From positions 1 to 58,582 of IMG/VR virus record IMGVR_UViG_3300032828_000001: DNA of 58,582 nt; one strand, given 5' to 3'. The stretch comes from a virus. A program made the position numbers and the translations under genes. The first letter of the stretch is position 1. Every line of letters starts with the position of its first letter. The notes beneath the pieces were generated by a model. The model ran no database searches. It saw only the letters and a program-made list of their open reading frames with translations, and had not been told where the DNA came from. Positions 35,218 through 41,490 of this stretch are shown here, piece by piece.

Positions 35218-35344
35218 GTCCCGGAGTCGGGCGCCCCATCGCGGGCGCCCGCCCGCGCGGCGTGCCGAGGCGACTCGGCGCACCGCGCGGGCCAAGGCCC
35301 GAACCGGCGCACGGAGCGCCGGACAACAACAGGGAGTGCACAGC
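35218..35344 (+). other. Hairpin-rich leader between 35217 and 35345
   Basis: 127 bp with overlapping GC-rich inverted repeats, including an imperfect stem GCGCGGCGTGCCGAG (from about 35256) against CTCGGCGCACCGCGC. No T-run follows, so it is more likely an mRNA structure that sets relative expression of the next gene than a full terminator. Confidence 0.35.
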
Positions 35345-36307
35345 ATGGACGCAACAGTCACGATCGAGGTTTACCCTGAGTATGCGGTGCCCAGCGAGGG
35401 GCGGGTGGAGTGGCTAGAGGCGCACGGGGCGCCCCCGAGCTCCGCAGAGGTAAGCGTCACGGCCCCACTCGCGCAGTGGGAGGCGGCCGGTATCGGCATC
35501 GCGGCGAACGGGGGATTGGAATGGTACGGCCGGGAGAAGGATGGTGTCGCGGATACGATCCGCGGCGCCATCACCCGGCGGATCCGCGCCACGGGCGAGG
35601 TCCCGGTCGAGTTCGATGCGACTGATGTGCTGGCGGGCCTGGCACGGGAGCGCGAGAAGGCGCTGCGCGCCGCCGCCATCGAGGCCGAACGGAAGGAGGC
35701 CGAGGAAAGGGCGGCCAAGGCACTCCACCGCCAGCGGGCCGAGGAGCAGCTCGCCGTGATGCGTGCCGGGGGCGATGATGCCATCGAGGCGTGGCGACGG
35801 CTAGATAGCCCGAAAATGTGGTGGAACAATTTGACCGACAGTGAAAAGGCGGAGGTGACCGCATGGGGAGAGGCGTACGAGGTGGCGAAGAAGGCCGCGC
35901 AGGAGCGCGCGAAGGACGAGATCCGCGCGTTCGCGGCGGATGGTCTCGCCGGTCCCGCGGCGCAGCGCGCGGCCAAGGAGGGATACGACGTGATAGGCGC
36001 CGTGCTCGATTCCGTTGCCGCGCAACAGCTCCCGGCGCCCCACGCCCGTAGCGTCCCCGACGACGACTACGAGTGGGAAGAGCGGCCCTCGCCGAATGAG
36101 GATGCGTTCGCGCTGCTCGATCGAATCGCGCAGGCGGTCGCGGCGGCAACGGTCCGGCCCGCCTGCGTGAACGTCGACTGCTCCCGGATCATGCGGATCA
36201 CTGAGCCCGAGGGAGAGGAGGAACACGGGCGGAAGCGCACCGGGGTCGTCGTGACCATCTCGAGCCCCATCACGCCCAATCGGTACCTCCTGTACTACGT
36301 CGAGTAA
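35345..36307 (+). CDS. Hypothetical protein with central coiled coil
   Basis: 320 aa from ATG at 35345 (a start 9 bp earlier also exists). N-terminal beta domain (TIEVYPEYAVPSEGRVEWLE), a Trp-rich patch (GIAANGGLEWYGREKDG), a charged coiled coil around residues 100-140 and a segment SPKMWWNNLTDSEKAEVTAW before a C-terminal beta end. No enzyme motif. Located before the AcrVA2-like gene; may be another cargo or counter-defence protein. Confidence 0.7.
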   Translation: MDATVTIEVYPEYAVPSEGRVEWLEAHGAPPSSAEVSVTAPLAQWEAAGIGIAANGGLEWYGREKDGVADTIRGAITRRIRATGEVPVEFDATDVLAGLAREREKALRAAAIEAERKEAEERAAKALHRQRAEEQLAVMRAGGDDAIEAWRRLDSPKMWWNNLTDSEKAEVTAWGEAYEVAKKAAQERAKDEIRAFAADGLAGPAAQRAAKEGYDVIGAVLDSVAAQQLPAPHARSVPDDDYEWEERPSPNEDAFALLDRIAQAVAAATVRPACVNVDCSRIMRITEPEGEEEHGRKRTGVVVTISSPITPNRYLLYYVE

Positions 36308-36317
36308 ACCACGTGTG

Positions 36318-36377: not shown

Positions 36378-36593
36378 ATGATGCTCTACGACATATTTTA
36401 CCCATCGTGCAAGGGGTTCGACCGCGATGTGCCGATCGTCGGCCCCCCGTTGCACGACCTCGATTACGCCGTCAACACGAACTGGGACCGCCACCGTCTC
36501 TATGCCGATTACGCGGGCGGGAAACTCGTGTGGTGCGCCCCGGAAGCCCTCTCGCTCCGAGGTCAGCGTCGGCATGGGGTCGGCACCCCATGA
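36378..36593 (+). CDS. Small protein coupled to the AcrVA2-like gene
   Basis: 71 aa, ATG at 36378 preceded by GAAAGG. Contains YDIFYPSCKGFDRDVPIVGP and a TNWDRHRLYADYAGGKLVWC segment: aromatic and Asp-rich, small acidic-protein character. It ends in an ATGA overlap with the AcrVA2-like gene, so the two are co-translated; it could be a partner or another small inhibitor. No helix-turn-helix is seen, so an Aca-type role is not supported. Confidence 0.65.
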   Translation: MMLYDIFYPSCKGFDRDVPIVGPPLHDLDYAVNTNWDRHRLYADYAGGKLVWCAPEALSLRGQRRHGVGTP

Positions 36594-37633
36594 CACACAT
36601 ACCCACGGTGTACCTCACGCGAATGAAGGATATGATCCCAACGTGCTGGAAGGAGGTGGATCGCTTCCGGGCCATGCGCGGGAAAGGTCTCCCGAACTGG
36701 CCACCGTACTGTTTTCTGCCGCTGGCGGGCGCATACGCGATCCTCAGTCGGGGCGACTCCCTGTCGCCCGAAGAATGCGGGGCGATAGCGGCGTTCGGCG
36801 CGCTCGCTGCTTGGCGCGCGACGCAGGGGATCTATGAGATTCACCCGGCCATGCGCGCCGCCGTCGAGACAACGCCGATCGGGGCCATACCGGTCGAGGT
36901 GCTCCACCGCATGCCGGAATGGTGCATCTACATCCGTACTCCCGGTAACAGTTACCTGGGCGAAAAGGTTGAAGGGTTCTTCGCCTTTCTCGAGTACGAT
37001 GCGAACACCGGAAGTGAAGAGCTGCGCATCGTCATCGACTGCCCGCCCTGTCTGCTATCTGTCCTTTCGATCCATCTTGACCAGGGCGGACTGGAACTAG
37101 GTGTCGCAGCCGCCTATGCCGAGTGCCGGAAGCAGGCGCACAAGGCGGGCATGGATTTCGAGCGCGCGATCAGGATCATGGGCGTGGGCCCGAGCGAGTT
37201 GGCGGCGCTCCTCACACCCTACGTTAACCTCGTGCTTTACGTATCCGCCGAGAATGCCGAGATCTGCGATGCGAGTAACACCCGGACCCGCCCGGAGAAG
37301 CCGCGGCCAACGCGCACGAAAAAAGGGCTGCGCCTCTTTCCGCCCGATCACCCGACTACGTGGGACGTGGGAATGCGGTTAGGAGCTGCGCTGCAAGCCG
37401 CCGAGGTCGACGACGACAGCGAGCCGCGAGGCGGCACTCACGCGGGCCCGCGCCCGCATATCCGTCGCGCGCACTGGCACCATTATTGGTCCGGGCCGAA
37501 AAGCGCGCAGGAGATAAGTCTACGTTGGCTCGCCCCCATCGCCGTCAATGTCGACGACACCCACCCCCTCGTCCCCACGGTGCGGCCGATACCCGGTGAC
37601 ATCGAGGCACCGACACGGAAGGATCCCCCATGA
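36590..37633 (+). CDS. AcrVA2-like anti-CRISPR protein (candidate)
   Basis: 347 aa. Compared from memory with AcrVA2 of Moraxella bovoculi, the order and spacing of blocks agree: WRATQGIYEI (75-84), a MPEWCIYI block (108-115), EGFFAFLEYD (128-137), LLTPYVNLVLYVSAE (207-221), the link TKKGLRLFPP (243-252), GMRLGAALQ (261-269), then the striking RPHIRRAHWHHYWSG (288-302) and RWLAPIAVN (312-320). AcrVA2 (about 320 aa) blocks type V-A (Cas12a) immunity; this homologue is slightly longer at both ends. It is ATGA-coupled to genes on both sides. No alignment was run. Confidence 0.75.
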   Translation: MTHIPTVYLTRMKDMIPTCWKEVDRFRAMRGKGLPNWPPYCFLPLAGAYAILSRGDSLSPEECGAIAAFGALAAWRATQGIYEIHPAMRAAVETTPIGAIPVEVLHRMPEWCIYIRTPGNSYLGEKVEGFFAFLEYDANTGSEELRIVIDCPPCLLSVLSIHLDQGGLELGVAAAYAECRKQAHKAGMDFERAIRIMGVGPSELAALLTPYVNLVLYVSAENAEICDASNTRTRPEKPRPTRTKKGLRLFPPDHPTTWDVGMRLGAALQAAEVDDDSEPRGGTHAGPRPHIRRAHWHHYWSGPKSAQEISLRWLAPIAVNVDDTHPLVPTVRPIPGDIEAPTRKDPP

Positions 37634-37860
37634 CCACCTGCATATTCCTGGGCTGTGGCCTAGCCGCGCACGGCCACGGCCTCTGCCGCACGCACCTGTC
37701 CCAGCTCGCGCGCGGGCAGCCGCTCACCGCGCGCAAACCCAAGGCCGACGCCGCGCGGGTGGTCCTGTCACTGCGGGTATCGCGCGCGGCCAAGGAGGCC
37801 GCGCTCGACGACCCCGAACGGGCGCGCGCCGCGCTCGAGAAATTGGCGAGGGGCGCATGA
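37630..37860 (+). CDS. Small protein with C-x4-C...C-x2-H motif
   Basis: 76 aa, ATGA-coupled to the AcrVA2-like gene. N-terminal metal-site motif CIFLGCGLAAHGHGLCRTHL (C4, C9, C19, H22) followed by RVVLSLRVSRAAKEAALDD, resembling a ribbon-helix-helix-like C-terminal part. The same Cys-Cys-Cys-His spacing occurs inside the integrase (residues 265-283). Possibly a small DNA-binding regulator. Confidence 0.7.
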   Translation: MTTCIFLGCGLAAHGHGLCRTHLSQLARGQPLTARKPKADAARVVLSLRVSRAAKEAALDDPERARAALEKLARGA

Positions 37861-38402
37861 TTCGGCAAACACGAGTGCTCGCCTGCGGATGTACCGTCGC
37901 GCGCGAGCATCATACGCGCGGCGCGGTGAAGGCGGCGCGTGCGCGGGGAGTAACCGTGCGCGTCGCAACGTGGGCGCAGCTAGAGGAGGAGCATGCCGGC
38001 ACCTGCCGGAAGCTCCGCGCGATCTACGCTGCACGGGAGCGCGCCTCCGCGCGCGAGTCCCGTCAGCGCGAGGCCGATATCCGGCGCCGTATCGCGTCCG
38101 GAGAGCTCTGCCCGCTGTGTCAGGAGCCGGTCACGACCAGCGTGGCATGCATCACCGGGCAACACAAGTGCGTGTGGTCGCGCGCCGACGCGGCCCGCGA
38201 GCTAGCACTGCCCGCCACTTCACGCACGGTGCGATGGCTCGCCGATGGCGAGATCTCGCTTAGGGAAGCGCATCGCATCGCGGACGTCGTGTCGGATCGG
38301 CACGATGCGACCGATTATGATCGGCTGCTCCGCGCCGGGTACGATCGCGACGACGCACGCGAGATCATCCGCGAGCAGCTACCGCCGCCCAAAAGAGGGT
38401 AA
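37857..38402 (+). CDS. Hypothetical protein with zinc and helical domains
   Basis: 181 aa, ATGA-coupled. Metal-site candidates in TRVLACGCTVAREHHTRGAV and ASGELCPLCQEPVTTSVACI; the C-terminal third contains RTVRWLADGEISLREAHRIA and YDRDDAREIIREQLPP, helical and possibly DNA-binding. No enzyme motif. Unknown function. Confidence 0.7.
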   Translation: MIRQTRVLACGCTVAREHHTRGAVKAARARGVTVRVATWAQLEEEHAGTCRKLRAIYAARERASARESRQREADIRRRIASGELCPLCQEPVTTSVACITGQHKCVWSRADAARELALPATSRTVRWLADGEISLREAHRIADVVSDRHDATDYDRLLRAGYDRDDAREIIREQLPPPKRG

Positions 38403-39960: not shown

Positions 39961-41490
39961 CTAGCCGCTCTGTGCGCCCTTGGGCGGAAGAAAGGATACG
40001 TTCGAGCTCGTGGGCTCCACGAGCCGGTAGACGTATTCCGTCCAGCGCTCGAGCGCGTCCCGCCGCTGGTCAAAATAGTCATCGTGGCTGTAGTACCCCT
40101 CCATCCCGCCCTCGACGTGACCGATACACCGCTCGGCGAAAAAGGGGAGAACGCCGCATTTCTTCGGGGCGAGCGTACGGAACGTGTGGCGAAGATCGTG
40201 CACCGTGACGTGCCCACCGGGGAGATCGAGCAAGGGCGGCACGCGGATCCTCTGCCCTTTCTGCCGGCGTTCGCCGGCCTGCATACGGCTGAGCGCCCGC
40301 ATAAGTGCCTTGTCGTTCAGCCGCCCCGATTCGGAGTCGCTGCTTGCCATCACAAACCGTGAATCCCCCGCCAGGCTTTTCAGCTCACGAAACATCGACA
40401 GCACTTGCGGTACGAGCGGTATCCTGCGGTCCTCCGCGTGGGCGATCTGTTTGGGCTGTAGCTTCTGATTTTCGATGGGGACGATCCAGATGGCCCCCTC
40501 GAGATCCAGCTCCTTCCATTCGGCCCTGAGTAATTCCCCCGTCCGATCCGGCACCAACAATAGGATGCGCAGGCCGAGCTGCACCGAACGCGACATCCCT
40601 TCAAGCGGAACGAGCGCGCGTCCACGCTTCATCTGCCGGTAATGGCCATAGCAGAGCCCTTTTGCTCTCGCGGCGCGCCCGCATGGGCTGAATGCGCACG
40701 ATGCCATTCCGGTCTCGATGACCTCATCACCCGTTCGCTTTTCTACCGCGCGCCAGAAAAGCGGGATCTCATGCTCCGAAAGGTAACGCCTGCGCCGGTT
40801 CTTCACGCAACCGAGGGCGTCCTTATCGAGTGCATCCATGGGGTTCACGGAGAGATCCTCCCCGTAGCTCCGGAGCCACCGAAAAAACTGGCGCAGGTGG
40901 CTAAAGACCATTCCGGCCTGCGTCGGGGAACCGCGCCGCACCACGCCAAGCACGATGTCTCGGCAGTCCTGCCGAGCTTGCGCCGTGTTCGCGGCCCAGG
41001 TGGCCAGGGGCTTCTTTCCGAGCGCCGGGAGAATGTCCGCATCGAGCGTCCGCCGAACCTCATGCGGAACCGACCGCTTCGGGACAATCCGCAACCGATA
41101 GAATTCTTCGGCGAGTTCGCCGATGGTCTTTCCGCCGCCGCCCATCGTGCGCGACTTGGAGCGGCGGCCCATCTTGGTCTCGAACTCGATGAGCTTCCCG
41201 GTGCTATGGGCTGCCTTGGCGCGTTCGAGAAGGGCGCGCGCGTCGTTCACCGTCAGTTGTTCATCCGTCTTGCCGCTCGGATGCCCCCATGGGCCCAGGA
41301 CCAATGATCGGTTTTCGCGGCTCCCATCTGCGTCCACCACCTGATAGTACCAGCGAAACATCTTGCTGCCGGTCGGGTACACGCGCAGGCAAAGGCCGCG
41401 GTCAAACCGATCGTACCGCCCGTCCGGCAAGTCTCGTATCCAAGCGTCCGTGAATCCGAACGGCGGCGTGCTAGTGTATCGGGGATCCAT
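39961..41490 (-). CDS. int: Tyrosine-recombinase integrase
   Basis: 509 aa from ATG at 41490 (SD AGGAGG). N-terminal DUF4102-like/arm-binding part (FTDAWIRDLPDGRYDRFDRG, LCLRVYP), a core-binding domain around 120-225 and a catalytic domain: RTGELLRAEWKELDLEGAIW (Arg316), HDLRHTFRTL (His431, Arg434), GHVEGGMEGYYSH (His458, Tyr466/467). Unusual: residues 262-295 carry an inserted CAFSPCGRAARAKGLCYGHY zinc-like motif in the catalytic domain. It lies beside attP (41860-41904), so it integrates the genome into a tRNA-Pro gene. Confidence 0.93.
   Translation of the reverse strand: MDPRYTSTPPFGFTDAWIRDLPDGRYDRFDRGLCLRVYPTGSKMFRWYYQVVDADGSRENRSLVLGPWGHPSGKTDEQLTVNDARALLERAKAAHSTGKLIEFETKMGRRSKSRTMGGGGKTIGELAEEFYRLRIVPKRSVPHEVRRTLDADILPALGKKPLATWAANTAQARQDCRDIVLGVVRRGSPTQAGMVFSHLRQFFRWLRSYGEDLSVNPMDALDKDALGCVKNRRRRYLSEHEIPLFWRAVEKRTGDEVIETGMASCAFSPCGRAARAKGLCYGHYRQMKRGRALVPLEGMSRSVQLGLRILLLVPDRTGELLRAEWKELDLEGAIWIVPIENQKLQPKQIAHAEDRRIPLVPQVLSMFRELKSLAGDSRFVMASSDSESGRLNDKALMRALSRMQAGERRQKGQRIRVPPLLDLPGGHVTVHDLRHTFRTLAPKKCGVLPFFAERCIGHVEGGMEGYYSHDDYFDQRRDALERWTEYVYRLVEPTSSNVSFLPPKGAQSG

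Follow-up and report, generated by a model that had tools for sequence, protein, structure and literature searches.

A temperate myophage encodes a distant AcrVA2 homologue from a phage and plasmid family that includes the fertility inhibitor FinQ

Because its product resembles AcrVA2, an inhibitor of Cas12a, a gene in a phage genome raises the question of whether it too counters type V-A CRISPR on behalf of the phage or acts on a different target. The window, by which we mean the whole stretch of DNA that was analysed (58,582 nucleotides), is a linear 58.6-kb IMG/VR virus record that comes without a host genome. A sequence-only reading had described it as a temperate myophage, and this description held, with genes for a tail sheath, tape measure, portal, terminase, major head protein, RecE-like (exonuclease VIII-like) exonuclease and tyrosine integrase. 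The ORF of interest starts with ATG, is open over its whole length and encodes 347 aa. It lies within a plus-strand run of small genes, with the exonuclease region on one side and the integrase on the other, and literal ATGA overlaps are present at both of its ends (positions 36590 and 37630); a third ATGA overlap of the coupled run is found at 37857. The product matched phrog_6160, to which no function is assigned, over residues 16-322, while no model matched it in Pfam or NCBIfam. The features of the locus are collected in Table 1.

Table 1. Features at and around the AcrVA2-like gene, in window positions.
Feature	Coordinates	Strand	Evidence or context
Perfect 12-bp inverted repeat, 5-nt loop	36317..36345	.	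Separates gene 35336-36307 from position 36378, where the coupled run probably starts
71-aa small ORF, ATGA-coupled upstream partner; 92 aa if read from the GTG at 36315	36378..36593	+	ORF
AcrVA2/FinQ-superfamily protein	36590..37633	+	phrog_6160, E = 2.2e-51; 7CI1 by phmmer and profile; 7CI2 by Foldseek
N-terminal motif WRATQGIY at residues 75-82 (family form WRxTxGIY)	36812..36835	+	Alignment of relatives
Middle-domain motif MPEWCIYIR at residues 108-116 (LPEWCVYIE in the family consensus)	36911..36937	+	Alignment of relatives
HIRRAHWH box, residues 290-297; most conserved stretch of the superfamily, proposed common functional site	37457..37480	+	Alignment
76-aa small ORF, ATGA-coupled downstream, zinc-finger-like CxxxxC..GLCxxH module	37630..37860	+	phrog_19978 HNH endonuclease, residues 1-44, E = 3.8e-7
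181-aa protein containing DUF2293, coupled by ATGA to the 76-aa ORF	37857..38402	+	PF10056, E = 5.5e-8
Tyrosine integrase, temperate lifestyle	39961..41490	-	phrog_1, E = 9.6e-43; PF00589, PF13356

We compared the 347-aa product with AcrVA2 in sequence and in fold. A single-sequence phmmer search returned the AcrVA2 entries PDB 7CI1/7CI2 with E = 2.6e-18, and hmmsearch with a 10-member profile, made up of the phage protein and nine plasmid relatives, matched 7CI1 with E = 5.7e-36 between profile positions 24 and 328, which is nearly the full length. The homology to AcrVA2 that had been proposed from motifs is thus borne out by the profile search, the C-terminal 150 residues included. The comparison of predicted structures that had been suggested along with it pointed the same way: an AlphaFold2 model (pLDDT 89.5, pTM 0.88; input, a 100-sequence alignment) retrieved 7CI2 from the PDB by Foldseek with E = 1.7e-17 and TM scores of 0.63/0.69 (0.60-0.70 for 7CI2 and 7CI1 together). 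No PDB fold neighbour besides AcrVA2 was significant in this search, the next match having E = 0.47, and neither a nuclease fold nor a known ribosome-binding fold was recognisable by comparison with the PDB. Based on the phmmer, profile and Foldseek matches, the likeness to AcrVA2 lies far above chance. The proposed order of AcrVA2 blocks proved correct against the true 7CI1 sequence, and all blocks are present in order in the phage protein: MPEWCIY (residues 108-114), GFFAFLEYD (129-137), LLTPY, KKG (244-246), GMRLG (261-265), RPHIRRAHWHHYW (288-300) and then RWLAPIAVN (312-320), with LPDWCVY, GFWAIYD, LLPYLLW, NKKTG, GERLG, RPHIRRGHWHGYW and RWQPAVFVN as their counterparts in 7CI1. These data establish that the phage gene encodes a genuine, distant, full-length AcrVA2 homologue with a common fold.

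The phage protein and AcrVA2, the anti-Cas12a protein of Moraxella bovoculi, are both encoded by mobile elements and share the fold, full-length profile homology and a block order with WRxTxGIY, LPxWCxY and HIRRxHWH. However, they are identical at only 63 of 293 positions of the family alignment (about 21%), and they are separated in the tree: AcrVA2, the Mcat5 homologue and that of Shewanella Y11 formed a supported clade on a long stem with the phage protein outside it, placed among plasmid and phage relatives in the best tree, although an AU test did not reject a clade uniting the phage protein with AcrVA2 and the Moraxella/Shewanella proteins (p = 0.67). A Cas12a-peptide pocket proposed for Shewanella ORF43 was not used as a criterion, because it is derived from docking and given in Shewanella numbering (PMC10846135).

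AcrVA2 is not the only characterised relative. FinQ, the inhibitor of F fertility encoded on IncI1 plasmids, also falls in phrog_6160 (E = 9.9e-48), is directly homologous to AcrVA2 (E = 2.4e-17) and was aligned by tblastn to residues 78-334 of the phage protein (74% of the query, 25% identity, E = 5e-15); 68 of 306 positions (about 22%) are identical in the family alignment, and its C-terminal box reads HIRRGHWHTYW. FinQ differs from the phage protein in being plasmid-borne beside IncI1 trb genes, in its shorter or divergent N-terminus and in having a known target, the F tra operon. With tblastn we found homologues in 66 phage records (Leptospira, Lactobacillus JCL1032, Pasteurella, Moraxella, Acinetobacter, Shewanella Y11 and jumbo phages of Erwinia, Dickeya and Salmonella) and in 558 plasmid records, 516 of which are typed conjugative; most are enterobacterial FinQ plasmids, many of them with an annotated finQ. 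Family matches were further present in 88 viral contigs and at no fewer than 145 places (at least) in GTDB genomes, from which 79 loci were retrieved, with carriers among Acidobacteria, Nitrospirota, Bacillota, Desulfovibrio, Methylococcales, Burkholderiales, Planctomycetes and others. The nearest relatives of the phage protein share 40-50% identity with it and occur on phages, on conjugative plasmids and in many bacterial phyla. Uncharacterised homologues from the plasmids Thioflavicoccus pTHIMO01 and Polaromonas pPNAP01, from Pectobacterium and Geoalkalibacter plasmids and from the IMG/VR phage L107 (36-50% identity) align over the full length and have the same domain layout, whereas their replicons and neighbours differ. 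The jumbo-phage homologues (Erwinia phages, Dickeya AD1, Salmonella SA002) likewise belong to phrog_6160 and have an AcrVA2-type fold, with HLRRAHYHHFW as their box, but share only 20-26% identity and are annotated as hypothetical, 'FinQ' or 'mycothiosynthase'. Among individual annotations, the homologue of phage Special G (KU886222, 189562-190245) is called 'putative protein FinQ', and that of Erwinia phage RisingSun (MF459646, 128479-129120) 'putative mycothiosynthase', which looks like a misannotation.

AcrVA2, FinQ and the phage protein are members of one very widespread phage/plasmid family. The phage gene itself is a divergent addition to this known family, and the unification of AcrVA2 with FinQ is the part that goes beyond ordinary annotation. 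Our literature search, which covered published papers, few of them behind subscription, found no paper naming both proteins; the link may already be noted elsewhere in the literature.

All three family motifs, HxRRxHWH, WRxTxGIY and LPxWCxY, are carried by the phage protein. The HxRRxH[WFY][HQ] box was found in 150 of 168 aligned members, a figure inflated by the retrieval of many members with patterns containing the box, and is recognisable in 17 of 17 reference sequences, including AcrVA2, FinQ and the Erwinia jumbo phage protein; the annotated phage (66) and plasmid (558) matches, which were found without the box pattern, are the only unbiased evidence for motif conservation. W75, R76, G80 and Y82 are invariant or nearly so among 100 relatives, and the WRxTxGIY residues common to AcrVA2 and FinQ correspond to W81/R82/Y88 in an offset alignment numbering. 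Identity between the phage protein and AcrVA2 is concentrated in the C-terminal region (24/65, vs 17/92 in the N-terminal and 15/100 in the middle region), which is also the most conserved part in comparison with FinQ (27/65). We considered whether RRAHWH (R-x4-H) is a HEPN motif; this is disfavoured by the strand-rich setting of the box (E290-292 and E295-301 in the model) and by the lack of any HEPN protein among the PDB structural matches obtained with Foldseek.

What the two characterised members do suggests a function for the phage protein. According to a 2026 review's account of a preprint (PMC13131331), AcrVA2 recognises the nascent N-terminus of Cas12a (LSKT peptide), resulting in translation-dependent loss of the Cas12a mRNA; the review presents this as the first known case of a prokaryotic protein that brings about destruction of an mRNA via recognition of the protein under synthesis. 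FinQ stops transcription of the F tra operon at multiple sites, giving rise to shortened transcripts, and has been called a Rho-independent terminator (PMC8744291). In light of the full-length match to AcrVA2, the homology to FinQ and the fact that both characterised members lower a specific transcript, we favour, at an even chance, the view of the phage protein as a mobile-element-encoded, target-specific mRNA silencer; its target would probably be other than Cas12a. In this working model, the protein would reduce expression of a single, specific host protein or of one encoded by a competing element: its recognition surface would bind the nascent peptide of that target as it emerges, and the shared core (HxRRxHWH, WRxTxGIY and LPEWCxY) would cause the translated mRNA to be destroyed or cut short. 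Two homologues with unrelated targets both lower a specific mRNA; the common activity would reside in the conserved core, and the remainder of the protein would read the target. Since FinQ has been described as a transcription terminator and not as an mRNA-decay factor, we infer, rather than assert, a mechanism common to AcrVA2 and FinQ and across the family, with the H-box as the effector site and member-specific targets. More tentatively, and at somewhat less than an even chance, the whole family may silence mRNAs under the guidance of nascent peptides, using HxRRxHWH as a shared engine against targets that have diversified; the 'multiple-site transcription termination' of the F tra operon, ascribed to FinQ decades ago, would then represent translation-coupled mRNA loss, and the phage protein would silence a defence or rival gene.

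The phage protein might also act as FinQ does and block conjugation or superinfection by reducing the transcripts of a rival plasmid or phage. This is suggested by the membership of FinQ in the family, by its published action on F tra transcripts and by several close homologues located near transfer genes on conjugative plasmids. However, the phage carrying the gene is devoid of conjugation genes, and FinQ (68/306) is no closer to the phage protein than is AcrVA2 (63/293); we regard this explanation as rather unlikely. Nor is the proposal supported that the protein is an anti-CRISPR as such, given that a conjugation inhibitor is equally distant and that most members of the family are uncharacterised.

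The gene had further been assigned to a counter-defence operon. While the ATGA coupling is present, the operon role is not supported, in that no neighbour is conserved and none matches a counter-defence family in PHROG or Pfam. With regard to linked acr/aca genes, matches to these collections among the neighbours of the phage gene were confined to HNH-like, DUF2293 and zinc/iron-chelating proteins; the 71-aa upstream ORF matched neither collection, and no homologue of it was found beside other family members. No recurring partner emerged when the small flanking genes were compared with those of about 15 annotated homologues, nor did a specific partner recur when all genes lying up to 8 kb away at 164 loci were grouped into clusters, the commonest being ParA, terminase, lysozyme, portal and helicase, i.e., general phage/plasmid genes. 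HTH/MarR regulators were the commonest among 113 adjacent proteins, in which PADLOC detected scattered single matches and no recurrent defence family. In keeping with the lack of a conserved partner gene, the phage protein probably acts alone.

Three settings in single or few loci were recorded. On the Thioflavicoccus plasmid pTHIMO01 (L012:4627-6011), a BREX operon ends with a homologue of 40.6% identity, which overlaps a 114-aa ORF that in turn overlaps brxL. At the Moraxella Mcat5 locus, AKI27193.1, listed as AcrIF14, lies two genes downstream of the homologue. In a few loci (L032:7413-8708, L037:9092-9790), the homologue is preceded by an IbrA/IbrB-like pair (PAPS reductase/DUF3440 and ParB_N).

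It is conceivable, but unlikely, that the phage protein blocks another defence system, e.g., type I/III CRISPR or BREX. Such a role would agree with the plasmid homologue directly after brxL and with the Mcat5 homologue two genes before the listed AcrIF14; the BREX link was seen only once, however, and no defence family recurs among the 113 neighbouring proteins. It would also agree with the distribution of cas1, which 32 of the 50 carriers of homologues like the phage protein (G001-G050) possess and which is commoner in Pseudomonadota carriers (19/29) than in sampled Pseudomonadota (93/249; Fisher p = 0.005), a comparison that is post hoc, unmatched for genome size and habitat, and based on carrier phyla taken from record titles. 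We regard this excess as a lead only, toward a possible association with non-type-V CRISPR.

A functional AcrVA2 orthologue, in turn, would degrade the cas12a mRNA and shield the phage from type V-A CRISPR. Homology in sequence, the fold match and the AU test, which leaves the clade with AcrVA2 standing, are compatible with this, but identity is as low as about 21%, the supported, long-stemmed clade of AcrVA2, Mcat5 and Shewanella Y11 leaves the phage protein out, and cas12a (TIGR04330) was detected in 0 of 74 genomes carrying homologues like the phage protein, a setting that differs from that of AcrVA2. The search is able to find the gene, as a class-level control yielded a full-length 1187-bit cas12a match in 1 of 391 genomes in the class of G072 (Clostridia), whereas an order-level control gave nothing above the cut-off; at this base rate, 0/74 is no significant depletion. 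We consider it very unlikely that the phage protein is such an orthologue, and equally so that Cas12a is its target. The absence of cas12a from the carriers also removes the support for the suggestion that the host lineage faces a type V-A system. Pseudomonadota are tentatively favoured as the host, since the portal protein found matches, none above 33% identity over long alignments, in 16 of 398 genomes of this phylum, compared with 1 of 297 for the phylum to which G001 (an Acidobacteria record) belongs and 0 of 296 for the phylum of G068 (an Actinobacteria record). An identical major head protein is encoded in two IMG/VR contigs, the ranges of which stop before the AcrVA2-like gene.

The protein could instead be a plain enzyme or regulate genes of the phage itself, without any counter-defence role. 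This would fit a PHROG without assigned function and the lack of an enzyme fold neighbour in the PDB, but it is hardly probable given that the gene occurs sporadically, and in no fixed neighbourhood, among unrelated phages and plasmids, a pattern that looks like an accessory weapon and not like a housekeeping phage gene, and given that both characterised members inhibit foreign systems.

Returning to the target-specific mRNA silencer, a general weapon of mobile elements would be expected to be spread, as the family members are, on phages of diverse hosts, on conjugative plasmids and over many phyla. That FinQ and hundreds of proteins from phages and plasmids, in hosts without Cas12a, have the AcrVA2 fold and the near-invariant box suggests a general mechanism. 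The action of FinQ against F in E. coli K-12 provides an immediate genetic model for finding the silencing machinery, and family members such as the phage gene constitute a pool for discovering new targets.

Two further elements of the locus deserve mention. The inverted repeat upstream of the coupled run is the longest perfect short hairpin of the 58.6-kb record (-30 kcal/mol for a 50-nt stretch); it lacks a T run, a terminator scan made no call there, and it could be a candidate terminator or operator. A tblastn-confirmed homologue search for the neighbouring gene at 35336 found nothing. A zinc-finger-like module (phrog_19978 HNH), CAFSPCGRAARAKGLCYGHYRQMKRGRAL, is located at 40624-40698 on the minus strand inside the integrase gene, and a second copy of the same kind of module lies at 37639-37713, in the small gene right after the AcrVA2-like gene; these are the only two in the 58.6-kb record.
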